This document shows positions 2,260 to 38,836 of a stretch of DNA of 47,347 bases, one piece after another; position 1 is the first letter of the stretch; each line of letters opens with the position of its first letter. Position numbers and translations under genes: made by a program. Source of the stretch: an uncultured Ruminiclostridium sp. (GTDB lineage Bacteria > Bacillota > Clostridia > Oscillospirales > Ruminococcaceae); the NCBI GenBank assembly GCA_947624435.1, contig CANQKE010000017.1, positions 1-47,347 of the forward strand, given 5' to 3'. The notes under the pieces were generated by a model. It ran no database searches. It was not told where the DNA came from and was given only the letters and a program-made list of their open reading frames with translations.

Positions 2260-3498
2260 ATGACTTACGATGAAGCGTTAGAATATATCGGGGGATTTAC
2301 CCGTTCCGGCTCGCCGATGAACGGGCTGGTACGGTTCGTTATCCTAATGAAAGAACTCGGCGACCCTCAGAATAATTTCAAGACGGTGCATGTAGCCGGC
2401 ACTAACGGAAAAGGCAGCGTCTGCGAGTATGTCTGCTGCGCTTTGCGGGAAAGCGGGAAAAGAGTGGGGCGCTTTACCTCTCCGTACATATCCTGCATAG
2501 AAGAACGCATACAGATAAACGGAAAGAACATTTCACGCGAGGCGTTCGCGTTACTTTGCGAAAAGGTAAAGGCGGCGGCGGACAGAACGGGCTTCGACGG
2601 GTATTCGCAGTTTGAAATGCTCTGCGCGATAGGTATGCTGTATTTTTCCATGGAGGAGACCGAGTACGTCGTGCTGGAGGTCGGCATAGGCGGAGCTTTG
2701 GACTGCACCAACATAGTTACTCCCGAAATATCGGTGATAACCTCGATAGGGCTTGACCACACCGATCTTTTAGGAAAGACCGTGGAGGAAATAGCCGCTC
2801 ACAAGGCGGGCATAATAAAACCCGGAGTGCCCTGCGTCTGCTCCTACGGTCAGCCGGAGGGTGCGCTGAAGGTGATAAACGACAAATGCAGGGAATACGG
2901 CACAACGCCGATATTGCCGTCGGAGAAAAGACTTGCCGTATTGCATATGGATATAAGCGACGTATTTTTCACATATAAGGGGCATAATTATCACGGGGTG
3001 ATGTCCGGAGAGCATCAGCTTAAAAATCTCACCTGCGCGATAGAGGTATGCGAGGCGCTCGGATTAAAGTACGGCGATATTTTCAGCGGCATAGAAAAAG
3101 CAAAGCTTGCCGCGCGGCTGGAGCATATCAATGCCGACGGCGCGGAATATATCCTAGACGGCGCGCATAATCCCCCCGCTATAGACGCGTGCGTTGAGCT
3201 TATAAAAATGTCCGGTAAGAAAAAGCACGCCGTTATCGGTATGCTTTCCCGCAAAAACTGGCAGGATTGCCTTGAAAAGCTGCTGCCGAACGTCGATTTT
3301 GTGACGTTTACCGACGATTTCGCGCCGGACGCGGTGACGGTGGGTACTTTGGTAAAATACGCCGAAAAATACGGTGTCAAGGCGCAGACCGCCGATACTC
3401 TTGCCGACGCGCTAGGCACGGTAAAAAACGACGAGCTCGGCGTTGTTACCGGCTCGCTTTATCTTGCGGGAAAAGCAAGAAAATTACTTTTATCGTAA
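2260..3498 (+). CDS. folC: Bifunctional folylpolyglutamate synthase / dihydrofolate synthase
   Basis: A 412-residue Mur-ligase-family enzyme that adds glutamate to (dihydro)folates with ATP in the cytoplasm. The P-loop GTNGKGSV is at about residues 47-54. The domain-2 motifs EVGIGG, ARLEHI and LDGAHNP are all present, and the length is normal for FolC. The ATG follows AAAGGCGG at a good distance. It is co-transcribed with the Nudix gene upstream, with no other folate gene alongside. Its stop codon touches a stem-loop (3498-3522) that probably ends the transcript and is also the first hairpin of a dispersed repeat. Confidence 0.93.
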   Translation: MTYDEALEYIGGFTRSGSPMNGLVRFVILMKELGDPQNNFKTVHVAGTNGKGSVCEYVCCALRESGKRVGRFTSPYISCIEERIQINGKNISREAFALLCEKVKAAADRTGFDGYSQFEMLCAIGMLYFSMEETEYVVLEVGIGGALDCTNIVTPEISVITSIGLDHTDLLGKTVEEIAAHKAGIIKPGVPCVCSYGQPEGALKVINDKCREYGTTPILPSEKRLAVLHMDISDVFFTYKGHNYHGVMSGEHQLKNLTCAIEVCEALGLKYGDIFSGIEKAKLAARLEHINADGAEYILDGAHNPPAIDACVELIKMSGKKKHAVIGMLSRKNWQDCLEKLLPNVDFVTFTDDFAPDAVTVGTLVKYAEKYGVKAQTADTLADALGTVKNDELGVVTGSLYLAGKARKLLLS

Positions 3499-3613
3499 GT
3501 CTGAAAATAAAATTTTCAGACTGTGAATTTTGTGCTTTGCTGAGTACGGTCAGCAATTTTGCTTCGCAAAACCTCACAAAATTCAAAAGTAGAAATGCTT
3601 GCTTTGCAAGCAT
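3498..3613 (+). repeat. Structured dispersed repeat, copy 1
   Basis: A 116-bp element starting at the end of folC. Hairpin I is agtctgaaaat/attttcagact (3498-3522). Then comes an outer stem gaattttgtg/cacaaaattc enclosing gctga/tcagc and ttttgc/gcaaaa hairpins, and finally atgcttgc/gcaagcat (3595-3613). A second copy lies on the minus strand at 14911-15027, with 12 mismatches over the 91 aligned bases after hairpin I. Several mismatches are paired and keep the stems. Hairpin I may also terminate folC. Confidence 0.85.
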
Positions 3614-3617
3614 GGTC

Positions 3618-3653
3618 AAAAAAATGACCGTCCGCAATTAAATTACGGACGGT
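3618..3653 (-). terminator. Intrinsic terminator of rnpB
   Basis: On the minus strand, accgtccg and cggacggt pair (plus positions 3627-3634 and 3646-3653). A run of seven T follows almost at once (plus-strand A run 3618-3624). It lies directly downstream of the RNase P RNA. Confidence 0.85.
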
Positions 3654-3656
3654 ATC

Positions 3657-3992
3657 GCAACTTTATCTGTAAGCCGGGTTCTGTCGGGTGCGGTCATCTA
3701 TCTAGGCCTTTCGTCGCCGAAAGGCTCAAGCCGCCTTAATCCGGGACCGCCGAGCAAGCGGTTTATCCCCGGAACCAATCGGCGTTGCATCGGATAGGGT
3801 TTACAGGCGGCAACGGTCTCCCGTCCCGCGGTGAGCTCTTACCTCGCCTTTCCACCCTTACACCAAAAGGTGCGGTATATTTCTGTTGCACTAGCCCTAG
3901 AGTCGCCTCCGGCTGCCGTTAGCAGCTATCCTGCTCTGTGATGCCCGGACTTTCCTCACGGATCACTCCCCGCGACCGCACAATAGAGTTGC
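3657..3992 (-). ncRNA. rnpB: RNase P RNA (bacterial type A)
   Basis: The catalytic RNA that removes 5' leaders from tRNA precursors. Read on the minus strand it contains the P4-region signature GAGGAAAGTCCGGGC (about 3940-3955), the GTAAACCC loop near 3800 that pairs with tRNA CCA, and the 3' signature ACAGAACCCGGCTTACAG. The end helix P1 pairs agttgc (3987-3992) with gcaact (3657-3662), which sets the boundaries to within a few bases. Its length (about 336 nt) and layout fit type A rather than the Bacillus type B. A promoter sits at the right distance upstream and a terminator directly downstream, so it is an independent unit. Confidence 0.95.
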
Positions 3993-10213: not shown

Positions 10214-11077
10214 ATGAAGCTTAGAAAAATCATGGCAGGCGTAGTTGCTTCTGCTATAGCAGTAAGCGCACTTGCCGTAAGCACTTTCGCTTACCCCGAT
10301 GATACCGATTTCAAGGCAGGCAAGACCGATGCAGGTCTGTCGATCCAGGGCAACAACTGGCTGGTACAGCTTTACAACACCGGCAACCCCGATGAGAATA
10401 AGCCCGCTGTTGATTACGGCGTAGACCTTTCCAAGGTTACCGGCGTTAGAGTTACCTGGCATGTTGCAGATGACGGTATGTCCCGTGAGTCGTGGGACGG
10501 TTCGGTAGGCGGCGCGCTCGTATTTTCTGTTAACGGCGGCGACATCGCAACCGGCACCGACCTGTACACCAAGTACAACTGGCCCGGCACCGCAGATTTC
10601 TGGGGCGTAACCGATGAAGAGCTGGGAATTGACACCACAGCACCGGAAAAGGCTTTGACCACAAAGACCCTTGGCGATTACACCTATAGTGTAGAGATGA
10701 ACAACGTACTTCCCAACCCGTTTGTAGAAGACGGCGTTAAGGAAGTAGGATGCTTCCAGATCTGCTTACAAGAATGGGGTTCTGCTCTGGTTGCTCAGCA
10801 CGTAGACAAGATGGAAGTTCTTGATACCGACGGCAACGTTCTTATCGCGTTTGATGAGCTCGGCAAGAAGATCGAAGACACAGCAACTGAAGAGCCCGAA
10901 GAGCCCGCTCAGTCTGAAGAGCCCGCAGAGTCCGAGACTCCCGCAGAGCCCGAAGCTCCTACCACCGGCGACTCCAGCAAGCCCAGCACCAACACCGGTG
11001 CAGAAGGCATTGCAGTTGTAGCAGGCGTAGCAGTTCTCGCAGCAGGTGCAGCAGTTATAGCTAAGAAGAGAAAGTAA
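10214..11077 (+). CDS. Exported surface protein with sorting-like C-terminus, paralog 1
   Basis: A 287-residue protein with a clear signal peptide (MKLRK..., cleavage probably after STFA, residue 26). A globular domain of about 190 residues follows, then a Glu/Pro/Ser-rich linker (EEPAQSEEPAESE-type) and the tail TGDSSKPSTNTGAEG plus a hydrophobic Ala/Val segment and KKRK. The tail mimics a sortase signal without LPxTG. The globular domain is shared with the minus-strand gene at 34396-35262: GVDLSK, DDGMSRESWDG, FWGVTD and NPF plus WGS segments align in order. I do not recognise the domain; a beta-rich ligand- or carbohydrate-binding module is a guess. It is a single-gene unit with its own promoter and terminator. 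Its third-position bases differ from its GC-ending neighbours, as in highly expressed genes. Confidence 0.75.
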   Translation: MKLRKIMAGVVASAIAVSALAVSTFAYPDDTDFKAGKTDAGLSIQGNNWLVQLYNTGNPDENKPAVDYGVDLSKVTGVRVTWHVADDGMSRESWDGSVGGALVFSVNGGDIATGTDLYTKYNWPGTADFWGVTDEELGIDTTAPEKALTTKTLGDYTYSVEMNNVLPNPFVEDGVKEVGCFQICLQEWGSALVAQHVDKMEVLDTDGNVLIAFDELGKKIEDTATEEPEEPAQSEEPAESETPAEPEAPTTGDSSKPSTNTGAEGIAVVAGVAVLAAGAAVIAKKRK

Positions 11078-11097
11078 TTTTCCCGAATAATTAAAAC

Positions 11098-11340: not shown

Positions 11341-11376
11341 GTCCGTCACTTGATCTTTTTCTTTTTCAGATATACC

Positions 11377-12071
11377 GGTGCATACGAAATACAAGGGATA
11401 ATCCTTATCCGAATTTATTCACCTCCGCTGGCCTCTCCGACAGGACACCCAGGATAGGGGAAAGGCGACCTACGGTTCCTTTCCCCTACCCTCGGTTTCC
11501 TTTCGGACTTTTCTTCCTCACCCGACCCCTATCCGTCCCTTTATTCACGTCGCAGGCTCTTCCTATCCGCCGCATATTATAAATTTCTGTTACGGCTACG
11601 GTTTTTCTTTTTTCTTCCTATGGAGGGCGCTTGATAACTCCGAAATACAGTACGTCGGTTGAGTTGTACAGACTCATTTGGCTGCTTGGCTTAGGCATTA
11701 TAAAGTTCTTTTATTATCATATTGTTCTTTTGACCATGCGTTTTTTCCCGCCCACCCACCCTTTTTGTGTGGGGCTGTCGCCCCACGCCCCGATTTTTTA
11801 TTTTGTGATACCGATATACTCATGTTTGCGGACAGTTTACAAACCCGTGCTTTTTTTGGGCGGAGCCAAATCCTGATCAATTGGGCATGCCCTTACTTCC
11901 TTTTTGAGTTATGTCCTTAATCCTCGCCGAGTGCATGTTATTCTCAGAATCTTATATATTTATACAAAATTCTCCCTCCCCTTTATGGGGAGGGAGAATT
12001 TTGTAGTCACATAAGGGGCCTGGGGAGCAATCTGCTCCCCAGCGGGGGTTGGGGGGCAGAGCCCCCATAAA
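11377..12071 (+). repeat. Long dispersed repeat, copy A (about 0.7 kb, non-coding)
   Basis: Matches 38061-38836 in the same orientation through a series of conserved blocks: 11377-11449, 11493-11520, 11615-11745, 11775-11860 and 11905-12071. Between blocks the sequence differs or has indels. No reading frame is conserved across the copies. It fills the spacer between two convergent genes. It ends in three stacked hairpins: the 18-bp one at 11964-12004, ggggagca/tgctcccc, and a ggggggcagagccccc palindrome. Confidence 0.8.
11964..12004. terminator. Bidirectional terminator hairpin inside repeat copy A
   Basis: An 18-bp perfect stem, acaaaattctccctcccc/ggggagggagaattttgt, loop TTTAT. The A-tract on one arm and T-tract on the other suit termination from both sides, as needed between convergent genes. 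In copy B (38732-38769) one C-G pair is replaced by A-T. Confidence 0.7.
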
Positions 12072-14019: not shown

Positions 14020-14898
14020 TCACCCCTTAGGCTGCTCTTTTTTGAAATTGTGCAGTCTTAATATGTTCGACAGTGCCTTTCTCATCGACTTTCTGTCCAC
14101 TATAGCGTCTACAAAGCCGCTCTCCAGCAAAAATTCCGCCGTCTGAAAGTCGTCCGGCAGCCGCTGACGTATGGTGTCCTGTATAACTCTGCGCCCCGCA
14201 AAGCCGATAAGCACTTTCGGTTCAGCTAAGATTATATCCCCCAGACTTGCAAACGACGCGGTAACTCCGCCGGTGGTGGGGTCGGTCAGCACCGTTATAT
14301 ACAGTCCGCCCGCGTCGGAATGACGCTTTACCGCACCCGCGGTCTTTGCCATCTGCATAAGGGAGATTATCCCCTCCTGCATACGTGCTCCGCCGGAAGC
14401 GGTAAACATTATCACCGGCAAATGCTGCTCGGTCGCGTACTCGAACGCGCGGGCTATCTTTTCACCTACCACGCTGCCCATGCTCGCCATCATGAAGTTG
14501 GAATCCATTATGCCGATGACCGCGCGGTAGTTGCGTATCCTGCACTCTCCGGTGATTATCGCGTCGTTTATCCCGTTAGTCTCCTGCAAGGAGCGTATCT
14601 TCTTTTCATAATCGGGGAAACCTATCGGATTTTTCGAGCGCATGTTTTCGTCGAACGGGATAAAGCTGTCGGGGTCCGTCGTTATCTCCAGCCTTTCCCG
14701 CCAGGTAAGCCGGGCGTGATAGCTGCATACCGGACAGGTCTTGCGCAGCGATATGAATTCGTCCATGTAAAACACGCTTTGGCAGCGCGGACACTTGAAC
14801 ATCAGATCCTTAGGTATCTCCGGCGCAGGCTCCGCGTTCTGTTCGCTCTTTTCCTCGTTAAAACGGTCCTTGACCATTTTGAACAGATCTTCGATCAT
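14020..14898 (-). CDS. accD: Acetyl-CoA carboxylase carboxyltransferase, beta subunit
   Basis: 292 residues. An N-terminal zinc ribbon (CPRC at about 38-41 and CPVC at about 57-60) precedes the crotonase-like core with FTASGGARMQEG and PTTGGVTASFA. It pairs with AccA. The only in-frame start is ATG 14898; the codons above it run quickly into a TGA. No ribosome site lies just upstream. Instead a perfect AAAGGAGG is at 14931-14938, separated from the ATG by the last hairpin of a structured repeat (14911-14929). Folding of that hairpin would bring site and start within about 13 bases, so expression may depend on RNA structure. Confidence 0.95.
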   Translation of the reverse strand: MIEDLFKMVKDRFNEEKSEQNAEPAPEIPKDLMFKCPRCQSVFYMDEFISLRKTCPVCSYHARLTWRERLEITTDPDSFIPFDENMRSKNPIGFPDYEKKIRSLQETNGINDAIITGECRIRNYRAVIGIMDSNFMMASMGSVVGEKIARAFEYATEQHLPVIMFTASGGARMQEGIISLMQMAKTAGAVKRHSDAGGLYITVLTDPTTGGVTASFASLGDIILAEPKVLIGFAGRRVIQDTIRQRLPDDFQTAEFLLESGFVDAIVDRKSMRKALSNILRLHNFKKEQPKG

Positions 14899-14910
14899 AT
14901 ACTTATAACC

Positions 14911-15027
14911 ATGCTTTCAAAGAAAGCATTCCTCCTTTCGAGTTTTGTGCGGTTTTGCGAAGCAAAATTGCCGACCGTATTCGGCAAAGCGCAAAACTCA
15001 CAGTCTTAAAAATTTATTTTTAAGACT
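14911..15027 (-). repeat. Structured dispersed repeat, copy 2 (between accC and accD)
   Basis: Minus-strand copy of the element at 3498-3613, lying in the sense direction inside the acc transcript. Stems read agtcttaaaaat/atttttaagact, gagttttg/caaaactc, gccga/tcggc, ttttgc/gcaaaa and atgctttc/gaaagcat. Relative to copy 1, changed bases in at least four stems are matched by changes in their partners. Two further changes create the AAAGGAGG ribosome site of accD, absent from copy 1. The element makes the accC-accD gap (148 bases) far longer than any other in the cluster. Confidence 0.87.
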
Positions 15028-15047
15028 TATCTTCCCTAAATCGCCGA

Positions 15048-34375: not shown

Positions 34376-34395
34376 CATGTTTTAAGAAAATTTAA

Positions 34396-35262
34396 TTACT
34401 TTCTTTTCTTAGCAACGATTGCTGCGCCGGTAGCCAGAATTGCTACGCCTGCTGCAACTGCAATGCCTTCTGCACCAGTGTTGGTGTTAGGCTTGCTTGA
34501 GTCGCCGGTAGTAGGAGCTTCGGACTCAGCCGGAGCCTCGGACTGTTCGGGCTCTTCGGACTCTGCGGGCTCTTCGGAACCGCCGCCGATCTCATTGCCG
34601 AGCGTATCAAATGTTGCGATAGTGCTGCCGTCTGCTGCAAGCAGTTCGCAGGTCTGAACGTCGTAGAGAGAAAGGGAGCTGCCCCAATCGGAGAGAGCTA
34701 CCTGATAGTAACCTACGTCAGAAATGCCTTCGGTAGTGAAGGGGTTCTGGAAGCCGAGAGCTTCGAGAGTGTAGGTGTAGTCGCCGGTCTTGGTGGTTAC
34801 AACTGCGGTCTCAGTGTCGTCGCTGGGATCGTCATTGCCGTTTACGTCGGTGTAAAGCTCCAGCTCGGGATCGGTAACGCCCCAGAAAGATGCGTGATTC
34901 TGAGCGCCTGACCAGTTGTAATCATAGTCGTTGGTGGGAGTAACGCCGTCAAGGTCGCCGCCGCCGCAGGAAATGATTATCGCGCCGCCGATCATGCCGT
35001 CCCAAGATTCACGGGACATACCGTCATCGGTAACGGATATGGTGAATCTTACACCGTCGATCTTAGAAAGATCAACACCGCGGTCAATGGTAGTATCGCC
35101 GGTAACCTTAAGCTGGATCATCCACATTGCGTTGGTAACGCTGGTGCCTCCTACCATGTCGCCGTCTACAACGTTATTGATGCATCCGGCGCTTGCGCTG
35201 ATGGCCATTGCTGCGGCTACTGATAAAGCTGCAGCGCCTGCCACAATTTTTTTGATTTTCAT
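34396..35262 (-). CDS. Exported surface protein with sorting-like C-terminus, paralog 2
   Basis: A 288-residue protein. Signal peptide MKIKKIVAGAAALS..., cleaved probably after ASA (about residue 25). The unrecognised globular domain shares with the gene at 10214-11077 the ordered segments RGVDLSK, DDGMSRESWDG, GGA-I-I-S-GGGD, FWGVTD and NPF...VGYYQV plus WGSSL. A Glu/Ser/Pro-rich linker follows, then TGDSSKPNTNTGAEG, a hydrophobic Ala/Val helix and KKRK. The last 35 residues are nearly identical between the paralogs. A new feature is an acidic loop with DVNGNDDPSDD that could bind calcium. It is a single-gene unit with strong signals, so probably abundant. Confidence 0.75.
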   Translation of the reverse strand: MKIKKIVAGAAALSVAAAMAISASAGCINNVVDGDMVGGTSVTNAMWMIQLKVTGDTTIDRGVDLSKIDGVRFTISVTDDGMSRESWDGMIGGAIIISCGGGDLDGVTPTNDYDYNWSGAQNHASFWGVTDPELELYTDVNGNDDPSDDTETAVVTTKTGDYTYTLEALGFQNPFTTEGISDVGYYQVALSDWGSSLSLYDVQTCELLAADGSTIATFDTLGNEIGGGSEEPAESEEPEQSEAPAESEAPTTGDSSKPNTNTGAEGIAVAAGVAILATGAAIVAKKRK

Positions 35263-38041: not shown

Positions 38042-38060
38042 CGTTTTCTTAAGATTACCG

Positions 38061-38836
38061 TTGCATACGAAATACAAGGGATAATCCTTATCCGAATTTA
38101 TCCACCTCCGCTGGCCTCTCCGACAGGACACCGCGTCGTCACAAACTCCGCTCCACTCCATTCGACCGTAAAGGTCGAATATCCGTTCCTCTCCGTTGCT
38201 CCTCCTTTTCCCAAAAAGTCAAAGACTTTTTGGGAACCCTTATAAATGGGAAGCAATCCCTACGGGTTTTCTTCCCCTCCCCACGGTTTCCTTTCGGTCT
38301 TTTCTTCCCGCCCCCACCCTATCTTTCCCCTTTACGCTTCCTATGAAGGGCACTTGATGACTCCGAAATACAGTACGTCGGTTAAGTTGTACAGACTCAT
38401 TTGGCTGCTTGGCGGAGGCATTATAAAGTTCTTTTATTGAGTTGTTGTTCTTTTGACCATGCGTTTTTACCCACCCTTTGATTTCGGAGAAATCAAAACA
38501 ACTATCCGCGCCAGCGGATAGTATGCCCGCCCCATTTGTTTGGGGCTCCGCCCCAAGCCCCGATTTTTTATTTTGGGCTACCGGTATATTCATGTTTGCG
38601 GACAGTTTAGAAACTCGTGCTTTTTGAGGCGGAGCAAAGCCCTGATTAATTGAGTGCTGCCCCACACCCTTTTGAGTTATGTCCTTAAACCCCACCGCGT
38701 GCATGTTGTTCTTAAACTCTTATATATTTATACAAAATTATCCCTCCCGTATGGGAGGGATAATTTTGTGAACACATAAGGGGTTCGGGGAGCAATCTGC
38801 TCCCCGACGGGGGTCTGGGGGCAGAGCCCCCATAAA
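38061..38836 (+). repeat. Long dispersed repeat, copy B (about 0.78 kb, non-coding)
   Basis: Same orientation and block order as 11377-12071. The first 70 bases and the block around 38338-38468 are the best kept. Unique inserts include a caaaaagtc/gactttttg hairpin near 38215 and a gatttc/gaaatc stretch near 38480. It fills the spacer between the 3' ends of leuS and the GGDEF/EAL gene. A 154-codon minus-strand frame here (38240-38704) is broken in copy A and is not counted as a gene. Confidence 0.8.
38732..38769. terminator. Bidirectional terminator hairpin inside repeat copy B
   Basis: acaaaattatccctccc (38732-38748) pairs with gggagggataattttgt (38753-38769). Compared with copy A the stem has an A-T where copy A has C-G, so pairing is kept. 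Confidence 0.7.

Follow-up and report, generated by a model that had tools for sequence, protein, structure and literature searches.

bcr1 of Bacillus cereus and BOX of pneumococcus are dispersed structured repeats, as is the element described here, and we know of no tie of either to the gap between SD and start codon or to an IS110 guide.

The IS110 family, for which a bridge RNA or seekRNA has been described in IS621 and ISEc21, is like this element in its ends and in the lack of a longer target duplication, as far as the available parts of those reports go (PMC11208160, PMC11187229). For IS900, an IS110-family element of Mycobacterium avium subsp. paratuberculosis, the target given in the available text is CATGNNNNNNTCTCCTT (PMC8141618). 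On the other strand this target is AAGGAGANNNNNNCATG, which we read as an SD plus a start codon, the same type of site as that of our element. Because the SD..ATG target of IS900 is in print, start-site targeting by the family is already known and is not new here. Among miniature elements, MITECca01 is moved by its parental IS982 element (PMC9769881) and MITEPye1 is thought to be moved by IS1182 (PMC11578231), according to excerpts of the two papers; the MITEs in the excerpted text of two further reports are tied to IS other than IS110 (PMC3718332, PMC2817692). Among the matches listed in a search of the open-access literature, there was neither a miniature IS110 element nor a guide read as an SD.

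The window analysed here is a stretch of 47,347 nucleotides from an uncultured Ruminiclostridium sp. (genome G000 below). It contains two copies of what is very probably a non-autonomous element of the IS110-family type, ~125 nt long, moved in trans and aimed at SD and ATG by the bridge RNA of a relative.

Results

Two structured copies in the window

The two copies form an inverted pair, each ~125 nt long, and are 86% alike over 118 nt. In the predicted fold of each, hairpin I comes first at the 5′ side, followed by a three-way junction that bears two inner hairpins, then by an open linker and finally by hairpin II. Folding was far better than that of shuffled sequences for both strands of both copies (z −4.8 to −7.3). 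The features are as follows.

3497..3621, + strand: copy 1, whole element; left end AAGTCTG, right end GGTCAAAA
3498..3522, + strand: hairpin I of copy 1; its 5′ arm is the left terminal sequence AAGTYTGAAA, common to IS110-family relatives
3525..3584, + strand: three-way junction of copy 1; outer stem 3525-3534/3575-3584
3537-3556, + strand: inner hairpin A of copy 1, within the three-way junction
3557-3571, + strand: inner hairpin B of copy 1, within the three-way junction
3584..3592, + strand: linker of copy 1 with the element's own SD, degenerate here (AAAAGTAG), AAAGGAG in most copies
3595..3613, + strand: hairpin II of copy 1, between the SD and the right end
14903..15028, − strand: copy 2, whole element, between SD-like GGGAAG and the accD start codon
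15031..15036, − strand: native SD-like GGGAAG left of copy 2, identified by eye; it fails the SD 4-mer rule used below
15002..15027, − strand: hairpin I of copy 2 (predicted fold)
14931..14938, − strand: the SD that copy 2 carries, AAAGGAGG, predicted to be unpaired
14911..14929, − strand: hairpin II of copy 2 (predicted fold)
14896..14898, − strand: start codon of the accD ORF (14020-14898), 4 nt past the right end of copy 2

An earlier note on this DNA had described two structured copies with compensatory changes. Both are present where it placed them and the changes that it named in the stems are real. It located the copies correctly, but the element runs some bases beyond the right end given there, to ..GGTNATAA in most copies. 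ORF translations bear out that copy 1 follows folC and that copy 2 lies in sense between accC and accD; the gene names used throughout (folC, accD, serS, tyrS, thrC, murG, rsmD etc.) are readings of translations. Copy 1 sits at the stop of the ORF read as folC (2260-3498) and has the right flank aaATG with no gene there; its site is an off-target insertion. The RNase P class A RNA gene (rnpB) lies at 3654-3991 on the − strand, opposite to copy 1, and its terminator-like hairpin (3627-3653, − strand) adjoins the copy. In the relative G031, accD is without the element and the site reads GGAAGGAAGAAAGTATATG.

The window contains other repeats as well. Positions 11373-12071 and 38056-38836 are a dispersed direct repeat pair, with blocks 82-97% alike and G+C-rich GGGGCTCCGCCCC-like hairpins, and positions 10896-11079 and 34394-34577 are a long inverted repeat, 86% complementary, repetitive and rich in GAAGAGCCCG-like units.

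Copy number, fold and covariation

A search of the genome (2.35 Mb in 62 contigs) returned 49 family matches at E≤0.01, including one self-palindrome of 19 nt and one fragment of 48 nt from the end of a contig. Tandem arrays occur on contigs C21, C9 and C36, and array periods are ~123, 122 and 91 nt. Hairpin II is missing from several relatives and from at least two copies of this genome (L031 and the last copy of the C21 array). Three contigs of G000 end inside the element (C36:1-328, C8:1-104 and C16:47867-47962). Since contigs end within it, the assembly appears to break on the element and the number of copies is probably an underestimate.

Alignment A1 comprises 45 distinct copies, taken from this genome and from close relatives; truncated copies and array duplicates were excluded. 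Under the fold, 95.5% of cells pair. Two-sided changes were found at 14 base pairs, in 50 cells, compared with 12.6 ± 2.9 in shuffled alignments, and 0 of 500 shuffles reached the observed value. When the structure was slid along the alignment, only 2-4 pairs had two-sided changes, a control in which a structure derived from the copies themselves favours itself. The earlier note had proposed selection on the fold and had set many copies with an excess of compensatory pairs as a test beforehand; with 49 matches and this covariation in 45 copies the outcome was positive, and selection acts on the fold or on something dependent on it. The note also knew of no named family of this layout, and Rfam has no matching one: searches with the window at the gathering score and with eight loci at E≤1 returned nothing relevant.

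The structure of A1 was named by hand, since the RNAalifold consensus picked an alternative stem. That stem has two-sided changes at 12 pairs, in 44 cells, with 45 of 500 shuffles matching its number of pair types, and it is nearly equal to the named fold on four of five measures. The copies in A1 fall into GTGAG..CTC and TTGCG..CTT types that prefer different partners for one 5′ strand, a split read from alignment columns 33-35, 82-84 and 92-94 with both window copies included. The outer stem with two inner hairpins that the earlier note drew holds for copies of the GTGAG..CTC type. One outer pair is broken in 24 of the 45 copies.

Strong covariation and two competing folds would also fit a cis-regulatory RNA of riboswitch or leader type. 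Such an RNA would control a regulon from the 5′ UTRs of its genes and might do so by alternating between the two stems. The following sections bear on this possibility.

Placement at translation starts

The right end of the element (..GCATGGTCATAA) mostly lies directly before a start codon, and the left end often lies right after an SD. We scored 39 sites in G000, counting each array once and leaving out the C36 array (L043, which has no right flank at its contig end) and two covariance-only hits (C12:29255-29381 and C10:1012-1147). Within 15 nt of the right end, 33 of the 39 sites had the start codon of an ORF with ≥60 codons. At 30 sites the ORF ATG was 2-4 nt past the right end, compared with 1.5% of random points in the same loci, and at 24 it was exactly 2 nt past. 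L036 is not among the 30: its coordinate runs past the first ATG and gives 9 nt, though an ATG directly follows ATAAca. An SD-like 4-mer was present within 22 nt upstream of the element at 21 of 37 sites versus 23.5% of random points; the other 16 left flanks had none.

Six sites failed the ORF rule, namely copy 1 of the window, L026, L012, L025, L029 and L040. L026 follows an apparent stop codon with no gene after it and L040 is truncated, while at L012, L025 and L029 an ATG is 1-2 nt away and its frame is short. The layout of insertion is thus SD, element, ATG, in sense. This placement relative to start codons had gone unnoticed in the earlier note. We read the element as a mobile insertion and not as a regulatory RNA of the ordinary sort. 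The constant position ahead of start codons would suit a cis-regulatory RNA, whereas the genes downstream (serS, tyrS, thrC, accD, murG, rsmD and others) look unrelated, which argues against a regulon.

Occupied and element-free loci

Seven loci (murG, ald, serS, accD, rsmD, tyrS and thrC) were compared with their counterparts in relatives, and each of the seven had at least one element-free relative. A further 29 sites were looked up in two relatives. For 23 of them, the locus of at least one relative contained no element that we could recognise; orthology at these sites was judged by eye, and L015 and L031 have differing upstream flanks. For L029, L032 and L033 the relatives were all occupied or decayed, and no relative was found for L007, L027 and L042.

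The two clearest pairs define the junctions. In the first, the empty locus L216 reads taggagaatAAtaATG and the occupied locus L036 reads taggagaat/AAGTCTG..CATAA/caATG; in the second, the empty locus L251 reads ggtgataaatATG and the occupied locus L017 reads ggtgat/AAGTCTT..GATAA/atATG. In both pairs only AA is found on both sides of the element, and the remaining pairs are less clean. The element has no terminal inverted repeats, and in these two pairs there is no target duplication beyond the putative 2-nt core.

Because relatives are without the element at the same genes, the comparison indicates that the copies are insertions of a mobile element. In the sister species, some copies (L121, L125, L224, L232, L244 and L249) look decayed by eye; single copies are not always maintained, whereas the fold of the family is. 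Element-free relatives of the same genes, decayed copies and the tandem arrays all speak against a cis-regulatory RNA.

Distribution of the family

The covariance model matched 27 of the 71 genus genomes and 19 of the 295 genomes sampled from the order, a patchy distribution whose tallies overstate the family, since part of the weak matches are another repeat. The weak hits that we viewed in G001, G008, G016, G033, G079, G092, G312, G101, G005 and G029 look like this different repeat, sharing the inner double hairpin only, and were rejected. The different repeat, found in the genus and family (L053, L054, L055, L066, L067, L075, L155, L163 and L189), has the inner double hairpin (TTTTGCTTCGCAAAA and its neighbour) in common with the element, and not the ends or the site. 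By eye, several of its copies have GTCCAACA-like ends and some are near tRNA-like sequences.

Diverged members of the family proper also occur in other families of the order. Hairpin I alone as a query led to seven viral contigs, and the layout before an ATG was found in all seven; carriage by viral contigs is a further point against a cis-regulatory RNA. One viral copy compared with phages and plasmids by BLAST gave no match. Diverged and viral copies consist of hairpin I (AAGTTTGAAAGATAAATCTTTCAAAC), a variable middle, usually GAAAGGA, an optional hairpin II, ATGGTNATAA or a close variant, and ATG. At diverged loci, ORF starts were near hairpin I in 36 of 51 instances, versus a high control of 53%, and we did not use this count as evidence. 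The right end alone, searched as AAAGGAATGGTNATAANNATG, had 36 occurrences, spread over 17 of the 245 genomes of the order, and none when the pattern was reversed.

IS110-family relatives with the same ends and site

Both ends of the element (AAGTYTGAAA and GAAAGG..ATGGTNATAA) are common to IS110-family IS of the same order and of viral contigs, the stretches in common being short. Upstream of the right end AAAGGAATGGTNATAANNATG, an open frame on the opposite strand encodes an IS110-family transposase; that of L259 matches PF01548, PF02371 and NF033542. A transposase search of the order gave matches in 17 of 394 genomes. The full elements begin with AAGTYTGAAA or, in a second group, with ..GTGAAA, and in most cases the flank before them is SD-like. 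All 16 IS110 copies with a recognisable right end adjoin an ATG; 13 of them came from the transposase search alone and three (L259, L263 and L320) from a pattern that contains ATG. In 13 of the 16, a frame of at least 60 codons starts at the adjacent ATG, the others being L324 at a contig end, L325 with 23 codons and L312 with 19. A 37%-identical homologue, L334, is without these ends and without the loop described below.

Target and orientation are the same in miniature and full-length elements, and the miniature has, in ~125 nt, no transposase gene and no recognisable guides or bridge RNA. Genome G175 contains four miniatures whose right end is of the IS type, and in three of these the left end resembles hairpin I. 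The right end of one of these (L291) is identical to that of IS L259 at 35 of 38 positions, and at 19 of 22 outside the searched motif. As judged from such ends, the G175 miniatures link the miniature and full-length forms.

No IS110 transposase was found in the assemblies of G000 and G031, the two genomes richest in copies, and the ends common to the G000 copies and the IS elements are short. Among the individual genomes that we viewed, none was seen with both this IS110 clade and miniatures. The IS110-type genes in G030, G017, G281 and G122 belong to other clades or could not be assigned to this one, and were set aside. Multi-copy IS can drop out of metagenome assemblies, and a miniature element can persist after its parent is gone. 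The IS110 partner of the G000 and G031 copies is so missing, lost or unassembled, and we infer it from the ends and the site in common.

The ends in common with IS110 elements argue against a cis-regulatory RNA, and they also bear on the idea of a REP-like element whose hairpins are recognised by a Y1 (IS200/RAYT) transposase. The repeat is rich in hairpins and one Y1 transposase is present in the genome; however, this sole Y1 transposase looks IS200-like and its flanking hairpins differ from those of the element, the insertions lie in an SD..ATG context and not at a fixed short target, and the ends match IS110 relatives. No Y1 element bounded by AAGTYTGAAA and GGTNATAA was seen in this analysis.

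Predicted guides of the full-length relatives

In the non-coding region of 17 IS copies we predicted a loop of the target type whose 5′ side contains SD-like GTGGAGGTGAGT or a variant of it. The reverse complement of a segment on the 3′ side equals eight bases of the copy's own right junction (ATAANNAT or a variant), exactly in 13 of the 17 copies, which are related and not independent; an exact match was absent in the other four. The flank of L322 was read from sister contigs, and without it the count is 12 of 16. When guides were re-paired with flanks at random, the mean was 1.2 and the maximum 8 in 20,000 trials. The order of the guides fits that given for IS110-type RNAs in the available parts of the published reports (PMC11208160; PMC11187229). 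These IS110 elements appear to be programmed to the translation start.

The right end of L259, L263 and L269 folds into a hairpin, and the loop of this hairpin, GTTTCATTCC when read in sense, could base-pair with GGAATGG next to it. The loop of the IS110 end hairpin may be a donor guide, or a mask for the carried SD.

Predicted exposure of the carried SD

The predicted unpaired probability of the carried SD averaged 0.65, compared with 0.45 when the upstream part of the element was shuffled, and was higher in 23 of 26 sites; 27 of the 39 sites had entered the test and L006 was dropped because its SD pattern was not found. This effect was modest, with 21% of shuffles doing as well on average.

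Discussion

In the mechanism that we propose, a full-length IS110 relative would supply the DEDD recombinase and the bridge RNA, and the miniature would supply two ends. The left guide of the predicted bridge RNA would be SD-like and the right guide would be the complement of the segment that runs into the start codon; guides of that kind would aim insertion at the translation starts of unrelated genes. The recombinase would join donor and target at a dinucleotide core, putatively AA here, and a circular junction of the miniature would read ..GGTNATAAGTYTGAAA.. The miniature would then sit in sense after the native SD and before the ATG, with no longer target duplication. With a bridge RNA programmed to SD plus start codon, nearly every gene would be a possible target.

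The fold would keep the element's own SD (AAAGGAG) in an exposed linker before the start codon, and the gene downstream of an inserted element probably stays translated. An exposed carried SD with the gene still translated would explain why selection keeps the fold. We infer that the conserved fold would be a device that frees the carried SD and makes insertion mild for the host gene.

A cis-regulatory RNA accounts for covariation, competing folds and position, and in view of the unrelated genes, empty and decayed loci, arrays, viral carriage and IS110 ends we consider it improbable. A REP-like element moved by a Y1 transposase is more doubtful still. Insertion at the RNA level, by reverse splicing or retro-insertion into single-stranded mRNA leaders, would likewise give sense orientation and unstructured sites, and the sites read are in sense and in mRNA spacers (two after stop codons), but the autonomous relatives that share the element's ends code for an IS110 recombinase and also have matching guides, so that this too is very unlikely.

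We thus favour a trans-mobilised IS110-type element. That these are the first described non-autonomous RNA-guided IS110 elements, parasites of a start-site-programmed bridge RNA with an evolved portable leader of insulated hairpins and exposed SD, seems to us slightly better than an even bet. If this is right, miniature trans-mobilised elements are added to the RNA-guided IS110 family, and natural guides use the translation start as a genome-wide site, with 39 insertion sites examined in a single small genome. The selected RNA fold would then look like a device for keeping the genes of the host functional. The natural guide/target pairs could be used for testing bridge-RNA rules, and the many paired occupied and empty 5′ leaders are material on how an inserted leader affects translation.

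Compared with known systems, the full-length relatives are like IS621 and ISEc21, as far as the accessible sections of those papers describe them, in having a DEDD transposase and an upstream non-coding loop that matches both target strands. The element itself differs from IS621 and ISEc21, as described there, in having no transposase gene or recognisable guides, in its length of ~125 nt and in its conserved hairpins. It is like MITECca01 and MITEPye1, in the excerpts of their descriptions, in being short, non-coding and dispersed with ends common to full-length IS, and differs from them in having no terminal inverted repeats, an IS110-type parent, placement at start codons and a conserved internal fold. 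The pair of features that classically defines a MITE, terminal inverted repeats plus target duplication, is absent, as the two ends are not inverted repeats of each other. IS900, in the available part of its description, is a full-length IS of mycobacteria, whereas the elements described here are miniature and non-coding, carry their own SD, and are found in an order of Clostridia and in viral contigs.
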